Below are positions 23,016-35,424 of a DNA stretch of 35,920 bases, in pieces. The position numbers were made by a program, and so were the translations under genes. Positions within the stretch are counted from its first letter, which is position 1, and every line of letters begins with the position of its first letter. The notes under the pieces were generated by a model, which had not been told where the DNA came from, made no database searches, and was given only the letters and a program-made list of their open reading frames with translations. The stretch covers positions 1 through 35,920 of the forward strand of contig VGIW01000027.1 in assembly GCA_016867715.1 (NCBI GenBank), in the 5' to 3' direction. Origin of the DNA: Candidatus Eisenbacteria bacterium. GTDB lineage: Bacteria > Orphanbacterota > Orphanbacteria > Orphanbacterales > Orphanbacteraceae.

Positions 23016-23073
23016 CGGAAGCGCGGGAGGAGATCCCCCGCGCCCGGATTGGTTCATTTATCAAGGAGTTATT

Positions 23074-23505
23074 ATGGCCCGAACGATCGTTTCGGCCTTG
23101 CTTCTGCTCGCGCTCATCACCGGATCGGCGCTTTCGGAAAGCGCGGATTGGGTTCGCGTCACGACGTGGGAGGGCCAAGAGATCGCGCTGGCGAACTTCG
23201 GGTTCTTCCGATCTTCGAACTGGGATGCGATCGCCGACTTCCGCGTCGATCGATCGAGCGTGCTCGTGGTGTACGGGGGCGCCCGCACCCGTATCTCGCT
23301 GTCGGAGATCCGGAGCGTGACCCAGGACCGTCCCGAGTTCACGAGTGCTTTCCACGGCGTGGTGATCGAGATGAACGACGGTCTTCGCTTCCGATGCGAA
23401 ATGGTCCCCGAGACCAGCGGGGTCGCGGGGAGCGATCAGGTCGGCGAGGTCCGAATCCCCGGGCGCAAGATCAAGAGCATCGAGTTCGTCCGGGGCGCCT
23501 CATAG
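23074..23505 (+). CDS. Exported hypothetical protein, 143 aa
   Basis: The signal peptide covers residues 1-22 (MARTIVSALLLLALITGSAL). The mature part is beta-rich (VRVTTWEGQEIALANFGFF, VLVVYGGARTRISLSEIRSV, GEVRIPGRKIKSIEFV) and resembles small barrel domains, but no family was recognised. AAGGAG precedes ATG 23074. It follows the Tad genes in the same orientation and precedes the Ig-repeat lipoprotein, so a surface or pilus-related role is possible. Confidence 0.75.
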   Translation: MARTIVSALLLLALITGSALSESADWVRVTTWEGQEIALANFGFFRSSNWDAIADFRVDRSSVLVVYGGARTRISLSEIRSVTQDRPEFTSAFHGVVIEMNDGLRFRCEMVPETSGVAGSDQVGEVRIPGRKIKSIEFVRGAS

Positions 23506-23648
23506 GGCGAAGAAGCGGAAGGGGCGGCGCGGGGTTTCCAAGACGTCCGCGATTCGCTCACGAGCGGCCCGCTTCGAGTCCCGGGTTCCGAGAGGCGCGG
23601 CGCCGCGCGCTCCGGGCGCTCCGCTCAGGGCGGAGAAGGAGGATTTCC

Positions 23649-26363
23649 GTGGGTATGGGCATTCGATCCCGAACGGATCGGAGGACGATCGGTATCTGGT
23701 TCAGTCTGGGCCTCTTCGTTCTCTCCCTCGTGATCTTGCTTGCTTGCGAGGCGAAGGACGAGGGACCGACCGGCCCGGGCACTCTCCCGACGGACGATCC
23801 GGTTCTGGATCGAGGGGCCGGCACGTTGCTCGCGGATGGATCGGACGAGAAGCCGATCTATGTCTACATCTTCAGCGAGTGGGGAGCTCCGCTCGAGGGG
23901 ATCGCCGTTCGCTTCAGCGCTTCGGTCGGAGCGATCACCCCCTCCGCGGTCACGGATCAGGACGGCCGCGCGTCCGCGACGCTCCTAAGCGTGTACTCGA
24001 AGCAGGATCTCGTCTCGCGCGTCTGCGCGTCGATCTCCGAACGAGCCGACTCGACCGCGCTCCCGAAGGGGAAGACCGGGCCGCTCGCGCCGCAAGAACT
24101 GTTTGACGCGGCAAGAATCGTTCGGATCGGGACCGAGGGGGACGCGTTCGACTCGCCGGGAAAGAGCGGAGTCTCGGTGGAGGCCCTCGCGGCCGCCGCG
24201 CGATCCGCGTGCGCGGATCAGGCATTCCTCGGGGTCAGCGTCTCGCTCGGCGCGTCTCCCGCGAGGATTCCCGCGGACGGGGTAAGCGCCGCCTCGCTTG
24301 TCGCGGTTCTCACGGAAACGACTCGCGGCGTTCCGGTCGTGGGGTCGGTGCTCCGCTTCGCCGCGAGCGCGGGTTCGATCGAGGGAGAGAAGACGACCGA
24401 CGGAGAGGGGATCGCGGTCGCCCGCCTGACGAGCGGAACCTCCCCCGACACGGCCGGTGTCAAAGTTTATGTCGGAACATCTCTCGCCGCGGATACGGAG
24501 GTCCAGTTCGCGCCGATCACGATGCGCCTCGTGGCGGACCCTTCGATCGTGAACGCGGACGGAGAGAGCGCGAGCCAAATCGCGGCGACTCTTCTCTCCG
24601 AACAATCGACACCGCTCGCGGGGCTTTCGATCGAGTTCGAGACCGACCGCGGTGCGGTCTCCTCGCCGGTCACGACCGGAACGGACGGGAGGGCGGTCGC
24701 GACGCTGACGAGCGAATCCGAATCGGCCGTCGCGACGGTGAAGGCGCGCTTCGCGGGGGCGCTCGTCGAGTCGGTCGAGGTCCGCTTCGCGACGAGCTTC
24801 CGGCCCGCGAGCCTCGTCCTCACCGCAGGACCGTCCTTGATCGTCGCGGACGGCGTGAGCACGGCCTTGCTCCGCGCGGCCGTGTTCGACTCGACCGGGA
24901 TCGCGGTCCCCGACGGAACGCCGGTCCGCTTCGAGATGCTCTCGGGGGGCGGAACCGTGAGCGGGCTCGCGGCGACGGCGGGGGGCGCAGCGACGATGGT
25001 CCTCATGAGCGGGACGCGAAGCGGGGTCGCGACGATCCGCGCAGAGGCGGGCGGCGCGGCCGACACGATCGCGGTTCGCTACGTTCCCGGCGCGCCCTCG
25101 CGCATCGATCTCTCGGCGAACCCGAGCGCGCTTCTCGCGAACGGCGTGGAGAGGTCCGCGATCGCGGCCGCCGTCTTCGACGCGCACGAAAACCGCGCGG
25201 GCGCGGGGATCGAGGTGAGCTTCGCCGCGACGCGCGGCGCGATCGAGCCGCGCGCGACGACCGACAGCACGGGAAACGCGCGCGTCTTCTACACCGCGGC
25301 GTTCGGCGCGGGCGAGGCGCGGATCGACGCCTCGGCCGGCGGCGCTTCGGCGCAACTTAGGCTCTCGCTTCTTTCGGATGCGCCCTCGGCGATCCTCCTC
25401 GACTCGCTCTCCCGCGACGCGATCCGTGTTCAGGGAACCGGCGCTCCGGAAGCGGCCACGATGATCTTCCGCGTCTACGACAAGAACGGGATTCCGATCG
25501 GTCCGGACAGCCCGACGCGCGTCGTCTTCGAGCTGAAGGCGGCGACGGGAGGCGGGGAGTATCTCCATCCGACCGCCGATACGACCGACGCGATGGGACG
25601 CGTGCGCGCGACGCTCGTCAGCGGGACGCGGCCCGGCGTCACGGAGACCGTTGCCCGCATCTCTTCGGTCAGCCCGGCCGTCGAGTCGCAGGTGATCCCG
25701 ATCGCGATCCACGGGTTCCTCCCGCATCCGACGCATCTGGACGTAGCGGCGGACACGCTGAACATCCCAGGGATGATCTACGACAACTGGGAGAACCCTA
25801 TCCTCGCGCTCGTCTACGACCGCTTCTCGAACCCGGTACCCGAGGGGACGGTCGTCTACTTCTCGACGAACTACGGCGGCGTCACCGGTTCCGACACGAC
25901 CGACGCGTACGGGCGCGCGAAGGCGACGTTCGTCTCCAAGAACCCGCGCCCCGGCGACGGCCTGGTTACGGTGACGGCGCAGACGGCGGACTCTCTCGGC
26001 AACCCGATCACCGCGCAGACTTCCTTCCGGATGAGCGGCTCGACCGCGCCGATCGTCGTCGCCCCGACGACCTTCTCGATCGCGGACGGCGGCTCGCAGT
26101 ATTTCACGTATCAACTGCACGACGTCTACGGCAACCCGCTCACGCATCACACGAGCGTCGAGGTGACGACGACTTCCGGAACGCTCGCGGGAGACATCCA
26201 GTTCGAGTTGCCGGACGTGATCGGCGGGTACACATCCTTCTCGTTCTATCTCGCCGACGCGCTGCCGGGGGATCCCGATCCCCCGCTGGCCGTGTTCGTG
26301 ACGATTCAGGTGACGAGCCTGAACGGAAACGCGTCGATCACGATCCCGGGCACGATCGACTAG
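23649..26363 (+). CDS. Large lipoprotein with about eight invasin-like Ig (Big_1) domains
   Basis: A 904-residue protein. GTG 23649 lies 6 bases after AAGGAGG; ATG 23655 is two codons later. The signal peptide ends LFVLSLVILLAC, an LLAC lipobox. The rest is a string of about eight domains of 85-110 residues. Each opens with a phrase such as IPADGVSAASLVAVL, IVNADGESASQIAATL or LLANGVERSAIAAAV, continues xxVxFxxxxGxxxxxxTTDxxGxAxxxL, and ends with a strand. This is the Big_1/invasin fold used as stalks in adhesins. There is no enzymatic domain or LPXTG. Placed at the end of the Tad cluster, it may be a surface stalk or adhesin. A terminator follows. Confidence 0.88.
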   Translation: MGMGIRSRTDRRTIGIWFSLGLFVLSLVILLACEAKDEGPTGPGTLPTDDPVLDRGAGTLLADGSDEKPIYVYIFSEWGAPLEGIAVRFSASVGAITPSAVTDQDGRASATLLSVYSKQDLVSRVCASISERADSTALPKGKTGPLAPQELFDAARIVRIGTEGDAFDSPGKSGVSVEALAAAARSACADQAFLGVSVSLGASPARIPADGVSAASLVAVLTETTRGVPVVGSVLRFAASAGSIEGEKTTDGEGIAVARLTSGTSPDTAGVKVYVGTSLAADTEVQFAPITMRLVADPSIVNADGESASQIAATLLSEQSTPLAGLSIEFETDRGAVSSPVTTGTDGRAVATLTSESESAVATVKARFAGALVESVEVRFATSFRPASLVLTAGPSLIVADGVSTALLRAAVFDSTGIAVPDGTPVRFEMLSGGGTVSGLAATAGGAATMVLMSGTRSGVATIRAEAGGAADTIAVRYVPGAPSRIDLSANPSALLANGVERSAIAAAVFDAHENRAGAGIEVSFAATRGAIEPRATTDSTGNARVFYTAAFGAGEARIDASAGGASAQLRLSLLSDAPSAILLDSLSRDAIRVQGTGAPEAATMIFRVYDKNGIPIGPDSPTRVVFELKAATGGGEYLHPTADTTDAMGRVRATLVSGTRPGVTETVARISSVSPAVESQVIPIAIHGFLPHPTHLDVAADTLNIPGMIYDNWENPILALVYDRFSNPVPEGTVVYFSTNYGGVTGSDTTDAYGRAKATFVSKNPRPGDGLVTVTAQTADSLGNPITAQTSFRMSGSTAPIVVAPTTFSIADGGSQYFTYQLHDVYGNPLTHHTSVEVTTTSGTLAGDIQFELPDVIGGYTSFSFYLADALPGDPDPPLAVFVTIQVTSLNGNASITIPGTID

Positions 26364-26915: not shown

Positions 26916-27141
26916 CGTGCTCGGGGTGCGGGAGTTCTTTCCTCTGAACCCTTCCTCGATCCGGAGAAGCATCCTCTCTTTCGCTTGACATTTGTATAGT
27001 AGGCCGGCACGATGTTCCGTATGGGCGTGTCGGTTCCAGGGCAGCCGATGCCCGCCTGTTTCGCCCGGGAGGCGTGCCTCCCGCATCGGGGATCGTGCCC
27101 CCATTCTCGGACGGCGAAGCGGCGGTTGGAGGCAAGGGTTG

Positions 27142-29907
<2,766 letters not shown>

Positions 29908-29996
29908 GCTAGGTGCCGGGTTCGCTCGGGTATCCGGTACCGATAGACAATACCGACCGAGAGGGGGCCCGCTTCCGCGTCGGCCCGCCTCGCGCC

Positions 29997-30024
29997 GGGC
30001 CCCGCGACTCGCCTTGCGGGGCCC
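29997..30024. terminator. GC-rich hairpin between nrdJ and the adenosyltransferase
   Basis: GGGCCCCGC and GCGGGGCCC form a perfect 9-base stem with a 10-base loop, about 90 bases after the nrdJ stop. There is no T-run on either strand, so it may be a weak or factor-dependent terminator or an mRNA-stabilising hairpin. Confidence 0.4.
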
Positions 30025-30090
30025 GCGACGTCTCCGCCGCGAAGGTCGAATCGGGCGCGGTTCTATCGGAAGGCCGACCGCGCGTTCTGC

Positions 30091-30119
30091 TTTACCGTGA
30101 GGCGGGTTCGGGCTATCTT
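30091..30119 (+). promoter_or_regulatory. Sigma-70-like promoter giving a near-leaderless transcript
   Basis: TTTACC (30091-30096) and TATCTT (30114-30119) are 17 bases apart. Only 9 bases separate the -10 box from ATG 30129, so transcription would begin at or within a few bases of the start codon. No Shine-Dalgarno precedes that ATG, in agreement. Confidence 0.45.
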
Positions 30120-30128
30120 GAGAACGCT

Positions 30129-30680
30129 ATGGCGAGGATCTACACACGGGGCGGCGACGAGGGGGAAACCTCGCTCTTCGGAGGCGAGAGGGTTCCGAAG
30201 AACCACCCGCGGGTCCGCGCATACGGAGAAGTCGACGAGCTCGGCTCCGCCGTCGGGGTCGCCCTCTCCGGTCTCGACCCGGGCTGGGACATCGCGCGCA
30301 CTCTTCGATCGATTCAACATCAACTGTTTCGAGTCGGAGGAGCGCTCGCCGATCCGGCCGGGAAGACGAAGGTCGTTCCGCCCGGCGCGGAAGAGACCGC
30401 TGCCCTCGAGCGCGCAATCGACCTTCTCGAAGAACAGCTTCCTGAATTGAAACGGTTCATTCTTCCGGGCGGGACGGCGGCCGGAGCGCACTTGCATCTC
30501 GCGCGAACGGTTTGCAGGCGAGCCGAGCGATCGGTCGTCGATCTTGTGGAACGCGGCGAAAGCGTGCCCGCGGGGATCATCGTCTACTTGAACCGCCTCT
30601 CCGACTATCTCTTCGTCGCCGCGCGGGCGGCGAACCGGCGGGCCGGCGTCGAGGAGGAACCATGGGATCCGGAGCGCTGA
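30129..30680 (+). CDS. pduO: Cob(I)alamin adenosyltransferase, PduO type
   Basis: A 183-residue ATP:cob(I)yrinic acid a,c-diamide/cobalamin adenosyltransferase (PduO/MMAB family), which transfers the adenosyl group of ATP to reduced cobalamin. The N-terminal ATP-binding signature is IYTRGGDEGETSLFGGERV, then RVRAYGEVDELGSAVGVALS. Later motifs are IQHQLFRVGGALADP, FILPGGTAAGAHLHLARTVC and the terminal YLNRLSDYLFVAAR, all typical. The usual TRTGD reads TRGGD here. Product AdoCbl is the cofactor of NrdJ encoded upstream. It seems to have its own promoter. Confidence 0.95.
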   Translation: MARIYTRGGDEGETSLFGGERVPKNHPRVRAYGEVDELGSAVGVALSGLDPGWDIARTLRSIQHQLFRVGGALADPAGKTKVVPPGAEETAALERAIDLLEEQLPELKRFILPGGTAAGAHLHLARTVCRRAERSVVDLVERGESVPAGIIVYLNRLSDYLFVAARAANRRAGVEEEPWDPER

Positions 30681-30708: not shown

Positions 30709-30858
30709 ATGACGCGCCGCCGCCCAATCCTTCTTGTCTCAATCGCCCTCCTTCTTCCTTCCGGATGTGGAACGGACCCCGACGGCGGCGAGAGCGCTCC
30801 TTCGCATCATCGCACAAGAAGAACTCGTCCTCTTCCCTCTCCTTCTGTCGCACGATAG
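30709..30858 (+). CDS. Short lipoprotein, 49 aa, probably a remnant
   Basis: ATG 30709 follows GGAGG by 8 bases. The product begins MTRRRPILLVSIALLLPSGC, a clear lipoprotein signal with lipobox PSGC (Cys20). After about 12 further residues (GTDPDGGESAPS) the sequence becomes Arg/Pro/Ser-rich, exactly where it runs antisense into the 3' end of the propeller gene (30807-30858). It therefore looks like the head of a lipoprotein gene whose body was lost. It lies 28 bases after the adenosyltransferase in the same direction. A functional tiny lipoprotein cannot be excluded. Confidence 0.4.
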   Translation: MTRRRPILLVSIALLLPSGCGTDPDGGESAPSHHRTRRTRPLPSPSVAR

Positions 30859-32234
30859 AAGTAGACTCCGGACGGCATCTCGCGCCCCGCGTCGTCCTTC
30901 CCGTCCCAATGGAATCGCGCGATTCCGGTCGGGCCTCTCTCCGCATCGTGAAGCACGCGCACGAGGCGCCCGCGAAGATCGAAGATGCTCGCTTCGAGCG
31001 CGCCCCCGTCCGCGCCGAGCGCCGCGAAGGAGAGAGCGGTAGGCTCGCGGAAGGGGTTGAAGGGGTTCGGCTCCGCCCATGCGGCTCGCCCCGAGCGGGC
31101 CGCCTCGCTCCCCGTGCTCGTGTCGATCGCCGCGATGACGGTTCGATAGACCGCGAGATCGGCGGGCGGAAGGCCGGTGTTCCGCGGAGCCATCGTGAGC
31201 CGCGTGCCCGTCGCCGCGTCGAAGAGATGAACCCCCGGCTGCGTGATCTTGCGATCGGCGAGAAAGACCTGCGCGGTCGCCGTGTCCCACTCGATGTCCG
31301 GAACGAAGCCGTCCGTGGTGTAGTGCGTTCCGTTGAGGGCTCCGTCGGATGTGCGGAAGGAGACGAGATTCGTCGTGTAGAACCAATCGCTCGAAACGGC
31401 GGCGTAGCCCTTGTCGCCCGAGAGGGTGAACACACCGAGATCGCCGCCGAGAGCGTTCTCGGTGACGACCCATCCCTCCGACGCGAGCGTGGCCGCGTCG
31501 ATCCTCTCGATTCCGCCGTCGAGGGCGAAATAGGCCCCGGTCTCGCCGAGGTAGATCTTTCCCGCGCCCTCGTCGAGGAGCATCGGCCCGTTCGGGTTCG
31601 ACGCGAGGAGAGCGATCCCCTGCGTACCGGGAACGGACGGGTTCGCGTCGACGAGGGTGTTCGTCTCCGTGTTCACGACGGCGAGGTAGGCGGGAAAGAG
31701 CGGGGTCCAGGTCGAGCGATCGATCCTTTGGATCTGAATGAAAAGGCGTTTCCCGAAGAGGACCATCCGGCTCATCTCCGGAAGCCCGTCCGCGTCGGCG
31801 AACACGGACAGATCGATTGAATCGACGATCGCGCCGGTCGATGGGTTCACCTCGTAGAGCCGGGTCGATTCGTAGCGGCTTACGTACGCCTTCGTCTCGC
31901 TTACGAAGGCGATGTCCTGCGGGTTGCTCCCCGCGCCGACGGAGAACTCGAGGATCGTTCCGAATCCCGATTCGGGATCGATCACCTGGATGTTGTCCGC
32001 ATAGAGACGGTTCACGACATAGATCCGGTTCCGCCAGACGCGGACGATCGGATCGGAGCTGACCGGCTCGAGATTCGTTTGAACCGGCCAAGGGTTCTCG
32101 AGGCCGATCGTGGCGCACTGTCCGCTTGTCTCGTAGTCGGTCGTCACCGCGAAGAGAAACTCCGCCGCGACGGAGGCCGCCGGAAAGACGAGAAGAGCGG
32201 CGAGCGCCGCCGCGAGAGGGATCGTTCGCCTCAT
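30807..32234 (-). CDS. Exported YncE-like beta-propeller, candidate BtuG-type B12 capture protein
   Basis: A 475-residue protein with a signal peptide at residues 1-24 (MRRTIPLAAALAALLVFPAA). About 25-385 is a YVTN/YncE-like propeller with repeated blades (NRIYVVNRLYADNIQVIDP, KAYVSRYESTRLYEVNPSTG, GYAAVSSDWFYTTNLVSFRT, QVFLADRKITQPGVHLFDAA). About 390-475 is a FlgD-like Ig domain (EPNPFNPFREPTALSF, IFDLRGRLVRVL, MPSGVYFYRA). ATG 32234 follows AAAGGAG and lies 2 bases after the btuB stop, so it is coupled to btuB and under the same B12 riboswitch. In Bacteroides, BtuG is a surface lipoprotein beta-propeller that binds B12 for BtuB. This protein has the fold and position, but no lipobox; its function is inferred. 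Confidence 0.75.
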   Translation of the reverse strand: MRRTIPLAAALAALLVFPAASVAAEFLFAVTTDYETSGQCATIGLENPWPVQTNLEPVSSDPIVRVWRNRIYVVNRLYADNIQVIDPESGFGTILEFSVGAGSNPQDIAFVSETKAYVSRYESTRLYEVNPSTGAIVDSIDLSVFADADGLPEMSRMVLFGKRLFIQIQRIDRSTWTPLFPAYLAVVNTETNTLVDANPSVPGTQGIALLASNPNGPMLLDEGAGKIYLGETGAYFALDGGIERIDAATLASEGWVVTENALGGDLGVFTLSGDKGYAAVSSDWFYTTNLVSFRTSDGALNGTHYTTDGFVPDIEWDTATAQVFLADRKITQPGVHLFDAATGTRLTMAPRNTGLPPADLAVYRTVIAAIDTSTGSEAARSGRAAWAEPNPFNPFREPTALSFAALGADGGALEASIFDLRGRLVRVLHDAERGPTGIARFHWDGKDDAGREMPSGVYFYRATEGEGRGRVLLVR

Positions 32235-32236
32235 GG

Positions 32237-34309
32237 TCACTCCTTTCGGGCGCGGCGTCCGCCGCCCGCTTCAACGGCCGCGGTCAAGTAAACGGTTCTT
32301 CCCGGCATCGGGTATCCGAAGGAATCCGCGCTCTTCTCGTCGCCGATGTTCTGCACGTCCAGATCGAAGAGGAACCGGTCCCCACGGAATCGGATCCGCG
32401 CTCCTACGTTGTGGATATTCCTCGCGGCCGCCCGATCCTCTTCGGTGTTCGCGCGGTCCCGGAAATACGGGTCAAGCCGGTTGTACTCATGCCTTAGCTC
32501 GATCCGCCCGAGGCGGAGCGAAAGCCGCGAGAAGAACTCGCGCGCCGAAACATACGGAACCCATTTGCTCTTCCAGTGAGGAACGGACCCGCGTTGGCGG
32601 ACGTCTTGCGAAGTGAACGAGCCGTCCGCGCGGAGCGCCCCCCCCTCGATCTTCCACTCGATCTCGACCCCCTCGGCATCGGCTTCCTCCAGGTTCACCG
32701 CCTTGAAGTTCCGCTGCGAGTTCTGGATGAAGACGATGAGAGAATCTCTTTTGGAGCGAAATACACTGATGTCAAGAAAGCCGTCGATCGGCCCATCCTC
32801 CGGCGCGCGAAGCCGAAAGCCGCCGTCCCATGTCGTGCCTTCCTCGGGAACGAGGAAGGGACTCGGGCGGACGTCGCCGTTCGTCCCGAAGAGCTCGAAG
32901 AGAGTGGGAAGCCGTCCGGCGCGCGCGCGGCTCGCTCGGAGAGAGAGGAAAGGAGCGAGATCGGCGTGCGCCCCGAGGGTTGCGGCTCGGAAACCGCTCG
33001 AATGTGCCGTTTGGAGAGGTTCCGGCGGAGGCCCGTAGGGGAGGACGCCGTGGAAGTTGTCCTTCGATTCGGTCCAGCGGAGCGCGCCGTAGAGCGAAAG
33101 GCGCTCGCGAAAAAGAAGGCACTCGTCCTCGAGAGAGAGGGACGAAACGCGCCTCTCCCTCGGAAACCCCTTGCCGACCGCCGGGTTTCCGTCTTCCGGC
33201 TCGAACGACTCGCGCCTCAAGTCCGCCCGCGCTCGTAGGGTTTGGCGCGCGCGAAGGAGGTGGGCGGTGACGAGAACATGTCCGCCATCCGCCTCGGACC
33301 GATGGATGAGATCGCTTAAGTGGAGCGTCGGTTCCTTGCCCGGATTGTAGTACCGGTCCCGGCGGTCGAGACGATAGGCGCCGAGATCGGCCCGAACCCG
33401 CTTCCTGAGGAGTCCGGGAGAGGCGGCCGCAAGGCTCGTTCGATGTCTTCGGTTGTCGAACGACGCCTCTTCGTAGATCAAGTTGCCGTGGCCGGGAAGA
33501 CCGCTTTCCTTGAGGTACCAATCATCGACCAGCTCGATCGTCCATCCGGCGAGCGGAGGAAGGCGGAGCTTGCCGAGGAGGGTGTGCTCGCGGAATGCGT
33601 TATTCGTCCGCGTGAGAACCGTGTCGTCCGCCACGTTGTGCGTGCGCGTCCCCCGGTCGTAGAGAAACTCGAAGTCGCCCCTCGTCTGAAGGTGCCTGTA
33701 GGAGAGGAGGTATGCGCCGCCTCCCGCGGTCCCCGAGCGGAGCGCGTAGGTTTTCCACGTGTCGTAGCTTCCTGCCGTGAGCGCGAACGAGGTGTGTCCG
33801 TCCCGCGCGGGATGCGTGACGAGGTTAACCGCCCCGCCGATGCCCGAGGCGCCGAGCGCGACGGGGGCGCCGCTCCGGAAGATCTCCGCGCGAACGAGGT
33901 TGTCGACGGGAAGCTCGGCGAGATTCACCGCTCCCCATTCCGCGGAGTTCAGCGGAATGCCGTCGAGGTAGATCTCGACCTGTCCGGGAGCGCTCCCGCG
34001 AATCGATGCGGTTGCGAAGGCGCCGAGCCCGCCGAAGCGCCGAACCCGCACACCGGCGGATTCCTCGAGGATGTCCGCGATCGTAAGAAGCCGGCCGGAC
34101 GATCCCGCGAGATCCTTCACGCTCGCGAAGAAGGGGAGACGGTCGAGATCGACCGGCTTGTCGGGGGCTTCCGCTTCGACCCGAATCGTGTCCGCGGGCC
34201 CGTAGAGGGGTCCCCCCTCGTCGGCCGACGAGAAGGTTGACACAAAAATCATTGCGAAGAGGACGAACGACGGGACCCACGCCGCCGAGCGCCGCGTGCA
34301 AACGCGCAT
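32237..34309 (-). CDS. btuB: TonB-dependent outer-membrane receptor, BtuB-like
   Basis: A 690-residue TonB-dependent transporter. The signal peptide runs to about residue 28 (VSTFSSADE). A TonB-box-like DTIRVEAEA follows. The plug domain covers about 60-165 (ILEESAGVRVRRFGGLGAFA, SIRGSAPGQVEIYLDGIPLN, APVALGASGIGGAVNLVT) and a 22-strand-type barrel the remainder (RASRARAGRLPTLFELFGTN; the end is DLDVQNIGDEKSADSFGYPM then a terminal strand). ATG 34309 was chosen because upstream codons of the open frame coincide with the riboswitch terminator. The cobalamin riboswitch in the leader is what identifies the substrate as cobalamin or a related corrinoid. Confidence 0.92.
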   Translation of the reverse strand: MRVCTRRSAAWVPSFVLFAMIFVSTFSSADEGGPLYGPADTIRVEAEAPDKPVDLDRLPFFASVKDLAGSSGRLLTIADILEESAGVRVRRFGGLGAFATASIRGSAPGQVEIYLDGIPLNSAEWGAVNLAELPVDNLVRAEIFRSGAPVALGASGIGGAVNLVTHPARDGHTSFALTAGSYDTWKTYALRSGTAGGGAYLLSYRHLQTRGDFEFLYDRGTRTHNVADDTVLTRTNNAFREHTLLGKLRLPPLAGWTIELVDDWYLKESGLPGHGNLIYEEASFDNRRHRTSLAAASPGLLRKRVRADLGAYRLDRRDRYYNPGKEPTLHLSDLIHRSEADGGHVLVTAHLLRARQTLRARADLRRESFEPEDGNPAVGKGFPRERRVSSLSLEDECLLFRERLSLYGALRWTESKDNFHGVLPYGPPPEPLQTAHSSGFRAATLGAHADLAPFLSLRASRARAGRLPTLFELFGTNGDVRPSPFLVPEEGTTWDGGFRLRAPEDGPIDGFLDISVFRSKRDSLIVFIQNSQRNFKAVNLEEADAEGVEIEWKIEGGALRADGSFTSQDVRQRGSVPHWKSKWVPYVSAREFFSRLSLRLGRIELRHEYNRLDPYFRDRANTEEDRAAARNIHNVGARIRFRGDRFLFDLDVQNIGDEKSADSFGYPMPGRTVYLTAAVEAGGGRRARKE

Positions 34310-34352
34310 CGCGCTTCCACCATGCGGTCGCCGGCGCGAGGAGGGCGCGGGG

Positions 34353-34383
34353 GAAACAGAAACCGAAGCGGCCGCCGCTTCGG
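34353..34383 (-). terminator. Intrinsic terminator, riboswitch expression platform
   Basis: On the minus strand CCGAAGCGG-CGG-CCGCTTCGG (34383-34363) is a perfect 9-base stem with a 3-base loop followed by TTTCTGTTT. It lies between the cobalamin aptamer and the btuB start, so B12 binding would end transcription before btuB. Confidence 0.75.
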
Positions 34384-34432
34384 GGAGAGCTCCCGCCCGT
34401 CGCGGCCAATCCTCGAGCCGACGGTTCGAGTG

Positions 34433-34459
34433 CCGGGCTCTCTCGCGCGAGAGGCCCGG
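34433..34459 (-). promoter_or_regulatory. Hairpin between aptamer and terminator
   Basis: CCGGGC and GCCCGG flank a self-complementary CTCTCGCGCGAGAG core, giving a long stem just after the B12 box. No T-run follows. It probably belongs to the expression platform, as a pause hairpin or anti-terminator component. Confidence 0.45.
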
Positions 34460-34469
34460 TTCGTTTTCC

Positions 34470-34645
34470 CCGGGGAGGTCTTCTGGCTTCCGGGTCTTCC
34501 TACCGCCCACGCCTTCCCGCGGCTCCCGGCCGCAGTGGCATCGTGTGGGTTTCGTCGCCGGTTACAGCGGCGGGCCCGCAACGGCTTCGCACCGTTTTCC
34601 CTTCTTCATTCCGCCCCGCGGACCCGGGGAAACCTTTTTGTCGGG
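34470..34645 (-). promoter_or_regulatory. Cobalamin (B12) riboswitch
   Basis: Read on the minus strand, the leader carries the conserved cobalamin aptamer elements in order: AAGGGAA, ACGGTGCGAAGCCGT, CCGCCGCTGTAACCGG, GATGCCACTG, GGGAAGGCG, and the B12 box GGAAGCCAGAAGACC near the 3' end. The outer helix GGTTTCC-type strand (GGTTTCCCC near 34633) can pair around the core. It lies downstream of a promoter (34650-34678) and upstream of an intrinsic terminator and btuB, so it should repress btuB and the coupled propeller gene when cobalamin is abundant. Confidence 0.95.
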
Positions 34646-34848: not shown

Positions 34849-35424
34849 CTACTTGAACAGGCGTTTCAGCGATCCCCAGGAGGAGGATTCGGTTTCGGTG
34901 GAACCGATACGCACGTAGGCCTTCGAGGGCCACGCGGCGTAGTAGTAGGTCCAACTGGTGCAGGTCATCAACACCGAGCCGGCGACATCGGAAGCGAGCT
35001 CGGCGATCGATCCCTCCGCCGCGGCGCGAAAAGTGATCGTCGCGTGGCAAAACGGCCATTCGATGCAGCCGAACCAATTGATCGTGTAGGTCGCCAGGCT
35101 GACACAACCCGGCGAGGGGAAGTCGGGAGGATAGCTCTCCCAGTAGGCGGGCAGGTGGTACTCGGTTGCCACGTAAACCAATGCATCCCCCGGAGAACAC
35201 ACGGTCGATGCGGCGACCATGATCCTCGGGGAAGGGAGATCGCCTACCCACCAGAGGTCGAGCCTTACGTCCTCTCCGATGAAAGCTTCGATCGTGTCCG
35301 GTCCGTTCCCGAGAACCCCGTCGAGGTCGAGCTCGATTGCGGCGTTCGTTCGCGCAAGGACGAGCGGTGCCGCCAGGAGGCTCGCGACGAGAAAAGACGC
35401 CGTCCAATTCCGCTGACTCTTCAT
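34849..35424 (-). CDS. Exported protein, 191 aa, with SWGSLKRLFK tail
   Basis: GAGGAGG precedes ATG 35424. The signal peptide covers residues 1-29 (MKSQRNWTASFLVASLLAAP, then LVLARTNA). The mature part of about 150 residues is rich in Trp, Tyr and beta-type sequence with four to five cysteines (FGCIEWPFCHATITF, SVLMTCTSWTYYYAAWPS) and resembles a small disulfide-stabilised beta-sandwich; no family recognised. The last ten residues, SWGSLKRLFK, match the tails of the beta-helix protein at 8641 and the broken gene at 674-914. It follows the SPFH gene by 52 bases on the same strand. Codon use is less GC-biased than in the core genes. Confidence 0.75.
   Translation of the reverse strand: MKSQRNWTASFLVASLLAAPLVLARTNAAIELDLDGVLGNGPDTIEAFIGEDVRLDLWWVGDLPSPRIMVAASTVCSPGDALVYVATEYHLPAYWESYPPDFPSPGCVSLATYTINWFGCIEWPFCHATITFRAAAEGSIAELASDVAGSVLMTCTSWTYYYAAWPSKAYVRIGSTETESSSWGSLKRLFK

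Follow-up and report, generated by a model that had tools for sequence, protein, structure and literature searches.

A cobalamin riboswitch operon of Candidatus Eisenbacteria pairs a BtuB-like receptor with a BtuG-like propeller apparently exported by the T9SS

In Bacteroides, the surface lipoproteins BtuG1, BtuG2 and BtuG3 (PDB 8blw, 8bmy and 8okv) are B12-binding propellers (PMC6143338, PMC10404256), of which BtuG2 carries a net charge of -18 (PMC10404256). Homologues of BtuG have been stated to occur only in Bacteroidetes (PMC6143338), and TonB transporters capped by lipoproteins seem to be exclusive to this group (PMC10404256); competition in the gut has been suggested as the driver. Another propeller that works as the partner of a TonB-dependent transporter (TBDT) is XusB, which pairs with XusA; it is also a lipoprotein, and its ligand is an iron siderophore (PMC13142918). 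More recently, a 2026 paper describes the DUF4465 proteins (BtuJ) as B12-binding scavengers beyond Bacteroidetes, whose genes often lie beside genes for TBDTs and PF16819 propellers across clades, and which, unlike the propellers, adopt a jelly-roll fold (PMC13398666). Finally, T9SS cargo with type A C-terminal domains, as found in Porphyromonas and Flavobacterium, ends in Ig-like domains that occur in many copies per genome together with PorU, SprA and PorV (PMC11285876).

The operon described here appears to be a variant of the BtuB-BtuG strategy in which the propeller is apparently exported by the T9SS. It lies in a window (the whole stretch of DNA that was analysed) of 35,920 nt from Candidatus Eisenbacteria bacterium, contig VGIW01000027.1 (GCA_016867715.1), positions 1-35,920, where the minus strand carries, in this order, a riboswitch, a hairpin, a gene for a BtuB-like receptor and the propeller gene (Table 1).

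Table 1. Features of the operon and of its convergent neighbours in the window.
Feature	Position	Strand	Basis
NrdJ, B12-dependent ribonucleotide reductase, convergent neighbour	26992..29907	+	NF005122 1429 bits, cut-off 859
PduO-type cobalamin adenosyltransferase, convergent neighbour	29913..30680	+	TIGR00636 185 bits, cut-off 108
Exported BtuG-like propeller protein (predicted), 475 aa	30807..32234	-	AlphaFold2, Foldseek
FlgD_ig / T9SS type A-like sorting domain (putative), about aa 391-475, ends ...GRVLLVR	30810..31064	-	PF13860, PorU likeness
Seven-bladed propeller domain (predicted), about aa 25-364, net charge -20	31143..32162	-	AlphaFold2
Sec signal peptide region (predicted), aa 1-24, without lipobox	32163..32234	-	Hydrophobicity and motif
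BtuB-like TonB-dependent receptor, 690 aa	32237..34309	-	PF07715 (Plug), PF00593 (TonB barrel)
Intrinsic-terminator-like hairpin, CCGAAGCGGCGGCCGCTTCGG + TTTCTGTTT	34363..34383	-	Between aptamer and btuB start
Cobalamin riboswitch aptamer RF00174	34456..34642	-	cmscan 100.2 bits, E 4e-24, 1-189/189

The complete cobalamin riboswitch of the original prediction is borne out by covariance analysis, since the match covers the full RF00174 model at more than three times its gathering score (31.5 bits), and this is the only RF00174 copy in the 3.5 Mb genome. The leader folds better than 200 of 200 shuffled sequences (z -4.5), and the hairpin that follows the aptamer would be a candidate expression platform, suggesting transcriptional control; that the operon responds to cobalamin we infer from the riboswitch class. 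As had also been predicted, a TonB receptor with both Plug and barrel domains is followed two bases later by an exported propeller, whose ATG at 32234 comes just past the receptor TGA (32239-32237) and has AAAGGAG immediately upstream. Because CbiC has no match in this genome, it probably lacks corrin ring synthesis, as judged from this one marker, and would rely on the uptake of B12, a need to which the NrdJ and adenosyltransferase genes next door also point. Two further genes of the window may be mentioned. Just upstream of the riboswitch, a 191-aa protein (34849-35424, minus strand), probably exported and without Pfam or NCBIfam match, is followed by the inverted repeat GACAGACAC...GTGTCTGTC, and 23049-26363 on the plus strand encodes a large protein in which bacterial Ig-like domains of the invasin/Big_1 type are repeated.

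In the case of the receptor, a BtuB-like open reading frame of 757 aa begins inside the aptamer at 34510, and the true start is probably the ATG at 34309, with a candidate TonB box (DTIRVEA, identified by eye) after the signal peptide. Profile searches against the PDB place BtuB1 of B. theta first (1.9e-46), followed by XusA (9gbc, 9e-45), BtuB3 and E. coli BtuB, whereas by fold the receptor model is nearest to XusA and then to E. coli BtuB, PqqU and BtuB2/3; PqqU is among the matches by profile and by fold. The relation of the receptor to BtuB is distant, as it scores far below the cut-off of the BtuB equivalog TIGR01779 (79 bits versus 600).

A single-sequence Pfam search of the propeller protein recognises FlgD_ig alone and no propeller. 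Structure prediction with AlphaFold2 from ten orthologues (mean pLDDT 82, rising to about 90 for the propeller and low for both signal peptide and linker) gives a strand pattern of seven blades, and a Foldseek search of this model against the PDB (1546 matches) puts an archaeal YVTN surface protein (1l0q) at rank 1 and the structures of BtuG1-3 at ranks 2-14, with TM values by target length of 0.74-0.81 and with XusB and YncE after this block; the plentiful BtuG entries in the PDB make it easier for them to fill the top ranks. The BtuG-like fold that had been proposed is therefore supported by the predicted structure. As with YncE and its receptor YncD/PqqU in E. coli, where the propeller is periplasmic, a YncE-type propeller adjoins a TBDT. 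YncE is PQQ-related and, to our knowledge, not under the control of a B12 riboswitch, and we know of no link between such riboswitches and XusB either. With BtuG, its closest solved fold next to the archaeal protein, the window protein shares seven blades, a strongly acidic propeller and a place beside btuB in a B12-riboswitch operon. It differs from BtuG in lacking a lipobox or lipoprotein export signal, in its extra C-terminal putative sorting domain, in a host that is not a Bacteroidete and in an identity of about 16%, and its binding of B12 is predicted, that of BtuG known and pico- to femtomolar.

Sequence profiles also detect a similarity to BtuG, one that does not rise far above that to other propellers. 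Single-sequence phmmer against BtuG in the PDB is not significant (E about 0.03), but profiles built from 10 homologues (A1) and from 50 homologues (A3) place BtuG first among the PDB propellers, at E 9e-5 and at E 2e-7 to 1e-5 respectively, and in a profile comparison 153 columns align with a stretch of BtuG3 at 27% identity. In the 50-row search, WD-repeat proteins come close behind BtuG, so common descent with BtuG is not proven by sequence alone. When more distant riboswitch-linked propellers are made into a profile (A5), BtuG1 is matched at 4e-26 and BtuG2/3 at about 1e-18 to 1e-17, but so are an archaeal YVTN protein (4e-43) and YncE (6e-18); these hits join a broad superfamily and do not settle the descent. 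Both common ancestry with BtuG and the separate recruitment of a YncE-type propeller are possible. The authors of the BtuG studies assign BtuG by a BlastP E below 1e-10 to BtuG1-3, a value reached neither by phmmer nor by the 50-homologue profile, and as the lipobox is also missing, the window protein is filed as BtuG-like and not as BtuG. Only 4 of 50 family members match PF16819. All propeller domains analysed are acidic (72/72, median net charge -28, as compared with the -20 of the window), and their conserved positions are overrepresented at the entrance of each blade's innermost strand (rank 4/340 shifts, corresponding to about p 0.02 if positions were random), which is faintly in keeping with a central pocket and may be general for propellers.

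The original prediction would have suffered if homologues lay mostly away from B12 genes, and they are found next to such genes nearly without exception. In a first sample of 98 genomes, the window's own included, homology extending beyond the C-terminal domain is present in nine other genomes, each time next to a TBDT and together with a match to RF00174; the Rfam model itself thus supports the riboswitch in the window and at nine other loci. Searching 84,980 species genomes for a single peptide motif, without regard to context, gives 69 loci, and after the removal of duplicates 75 distinct loci are available, most of them from this context-blind scan and mostly in metagenome-assembled genomes. 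A BtuB-like receptor lies directly upstream on the same strand in 74 of the 75, mostly within 60 bases, and the sole exception is cut by the start of its contig. With a covariance model trained on ten of these riboswitches, one is detected upstream in 65 of the 75, which means that ten of the loci scored had served for training and the remaining hits are independent; among the ten loci without it, six have little or no upstream contig sequence and four are divergent loci of Pseudomonadota or Myxococcota. A second survey, with matches in 86 of 386 genomes and 60 loci fetched, weak homologues included, shows riboswitches in 49 of the 60 and TBDTs in most. The named hosts, which place the family outside Bacteroidetes as had been proposed, belong to Eisenbacteria, Latescibacterota, Krumholzibacteriota, Handelsmanbacteria, Gemmatimonadota, Myxococcota, Pseudomonadota and Leptospiraceae, and three of the operons (L039, L038 and L072) also contain BtuF, BtuC and BtuD-like genes, identified partly by eye. 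Since the genome of the window encodes only 7 TBDT plugs, an adjacency of propeller and TBDT by chance would be rare, and chance adjacency of propeller and btuB was ruled out from this figure and from the linkage in 74 of 75 loci. The partnership with a riboswitch-controlled receptor that had been proposed is supported.

Several of these loci show particularities of their own. Some carry a tandem pair of propeller genes after btuB (L039:2984-5198, minus strand, and L181/L182). A second domain with the motif VVSLG..G.I.L.F...VFEN.F, for which neither Pfam nor the PDB gives a specific match, is fused to the propeller in L093 (8192-8863, plus strand) and encoded separately, next to the propeller genes, in L039 (1995-2966, minus strand), with 29% identity between the two copies. 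BtuG1 carries a fused BtuH domain, and by analogy this second domain could perhaps be another B12-binding accessory. In L080, a gene for a BtuF-like periplasmic binding protein lies between riboswitch and btuB (by eye). The propellers of L180 and L184, which come from one family, share the odd C-terminus GDPxFGGGGH, and Lp49 of Leptospira (PDB 3bws) matches the A5 profile of riboswitch-linked propellers at E 1e-15.

The C-terminal domain had been described as a FlgD-type Ig-like domain. This stands as far as the family is concerned, with a PF13860 match at aa 410-465 (28.1 bits, cut-off 27), and the reading as a loose Ig domain does not, as the module is best taken for a T9SS sorting domain. 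Its profile matches the C-terminus of PorU in the PDB (E 5e-6); TIGR04183 (Por_Secre_tail) gives 14.5 bits, below its cut-off of 23, and is a model built mainly for Bacteroidetes. Domains of the FlgD_ig type stand at the C-termini of dozens of proteins in this genome, and 20 of 20 sampled copies end within 15 residues of the protein end, with R or K as the last residue. The same genome encodes the PorU sortase (555 bits, cut-off 420), SprA (539 bits, cut-off 200) and several proteins of the PorV family, from which the presence of a T9SS follows. A flagellar part and a neutral Ig module were considered for the FlgD domain and rejected because of its many copies, its position at the terminus and the T9SS genes. 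Thus, the window protein looks like T9SS cargo in having a terminal Ig-like domain, a T9SS core in its genome and a Sec signal peptide without lipobox, with fixed rules used to assign start codons and lipoboxes, and hydrophobicity and motif to call signal peptides. The absence of a lipobox had been part of the original prediction and so had an anchoring different from that of BtuG, for which the sorting-type domain and the PorU, SprA and PorV genes now offer a plausible form.

Across the family the predicted anchor of the propeller varies. Among the homologues compared, 47 have the domain, 15 a lipobox (with 4 more by eye; for instance in L038, L039, L058 and L103), 10 a dockerin/EF-hand-like tail (with 1 more by eye) and one none, and no homologue combines the sorting domain with a lipobox; the dockerin-like tails end the Latescibacterota-type propellers (L076, L077, L080-L085, L097 and L100). 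SprA, counted by hand from a table with two marginal hits (<=27 bits) left out, is present in 30 of 30 genomes of the domain type (one fragmentary), in 5 of 5 with the dockerin-like tail and in 3 of 19 of the lipobox type (L058 clear, L074 fragmentary, L102 partial), counts that are not independent cases because the genomes are related. Placed on the tree, the anchor types require 4 changes, as against about 27 with shuffled labels. The T9SS is reported to be confined to the FCB group and missing from Bacteroides (PMC11285876), which fits the finding that the propeller is a lipoprotein where the T9SS is missing, that is, in Bacteroides, Myxococcota and Pseudomonadota. In the T9SS-bearing clades studied here, most of the propellers are predicted to be T9SS cargo. 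T9SS-like C-terminal domains are also present on more distant riboswitch-linked propellers (L196, L199, L201, L202, L206-L208 and L211), which possibly acquired them separately.

The most probable reading of the operon, in which we place reasonably good confidence, is that of a riboswitch-controlled BtuB working with a T9SS-exported surface propeller that captures corrinoids for it. When cobalamin is scarce, release of the riboswitch block would allow the btuB-propeller mRNA to be made, and with it both proteins together. BtuB would be inserted into the outer membrane, and the propeller would be exported by Sec through the inner membrane and by the T9SS through the outer one. Its C-terminal domain would direct this second step and would presumably be cut off by PorU, so that the propeller would end up on the surface (tethered to LPS) or close by. 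Corrinoids outside the cell would there be captured in its acidic central pocket and handed to BtuB, which would pass them inward with TonB energy. The export route and surface location are deduced from the sorting-type domain, and display, B12 binding and hand-over from the analogy with BtuG in Bacteroides (PMC6143338, PMC10404256).

A first alternative departs from this only after secretion, with the T9SS releasing the propeller as a 'cobalophore', a soluble scavenger of B12 that, like the haemophore HasA, would dock on BtuB only when loaded. The sorting domain predicts the crossing of the outer membrane, nothing observed points to retention, and the HasA-HasR pair is a known precedent for soluble delivery (PMC13142918), but the lipid-anchored homologues of lineages without T9SS suggest that attachment matters and the BtuG-BtuB complex is stable (PMC10404256), and release appears unlikely. 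Distinctly unlikely, in our opinion, is that the C-terminal domain would be a structural Ig-like module without secretion signal, in a protein exported by another route: FlgD_ig is also the domain of a flagellar hook cap and the TIGR04183 score falls short of its cut-off, but the sampled copies are all extreme C-terminal with a basic last residue, the likeness is to the PorU C-terminus, T9SS core genes are present and the domain co-occurs with SprA in every domain-type genome. A periplasmic propeller on the model of YncE, passing B12 for instance from BtuB to BtuF, would accord with the YncE-type fold and with the one homologue that has neither lipobox nor tail (L037), and the lipoboxes in Myxococcota or Pseudomonadota are no proof of surface exposure; a T9SS sorting domain would nevertheless make no sense in the periplasm, and it is found in the clade of the window and in other T9SS-bearing clades, which leaves this location very improbable. 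Most improbable of all is a propeller that shares the B12 regulon as a non-binding structural lid or as the binder of another corrinoid-related or metal ligand, as XusB, a related propeller that comes directly behind BtuG in the fold ranking, binds siderophores, once off the central pocket (PMC13142918), because riboswitch control is near-universal in the family and three of its operons hold the BtuF, BtuC and BtuD-like genes.

A last question is related to the meaning of the favoured reading, that of a surface propeller exported by the T9SS and serving BtuB. In the open-licence literature searched, no T9SS-exported capture partner of a TBDT is reported, nor are BtuG-like propellers outside Bacteroidetes as such, and earlier reports of either are possible. 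The general idea is made less surprising by the DUF4465 scavengers beyond Bacteroidetes and the propeller genes near them, already noted in the paper mentioned above (PMC13398666), and what is apparently new here is the anchor, that is, the apparent T9SS sorting domain on a BtuG-like propeller. Somewhat favoured by the data is the wider proposal that a nutrient-capture partner of a TBDT is delivered and anchored by the T9SS, not as a lipoprotein, and that the anchor (T9SS domain, lipid or dockerin-like tail) has been exchanged several times, the B12-capturing propeller and BtuB being kept together across phyla. If this is true, the conserved trait would be surface display itself and not the lipid, and the lid on a TonB transporter need not be a lipoprotein. 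Moreover, a T9SS cargo with a defined role in nutrient uptake would be predicted, with dozens of proteins at hand for testing it, and propeller-assisted capture of B12 would be far older and wider than the gut Bacteroidetes, extending to environmental lineages of several phyla.
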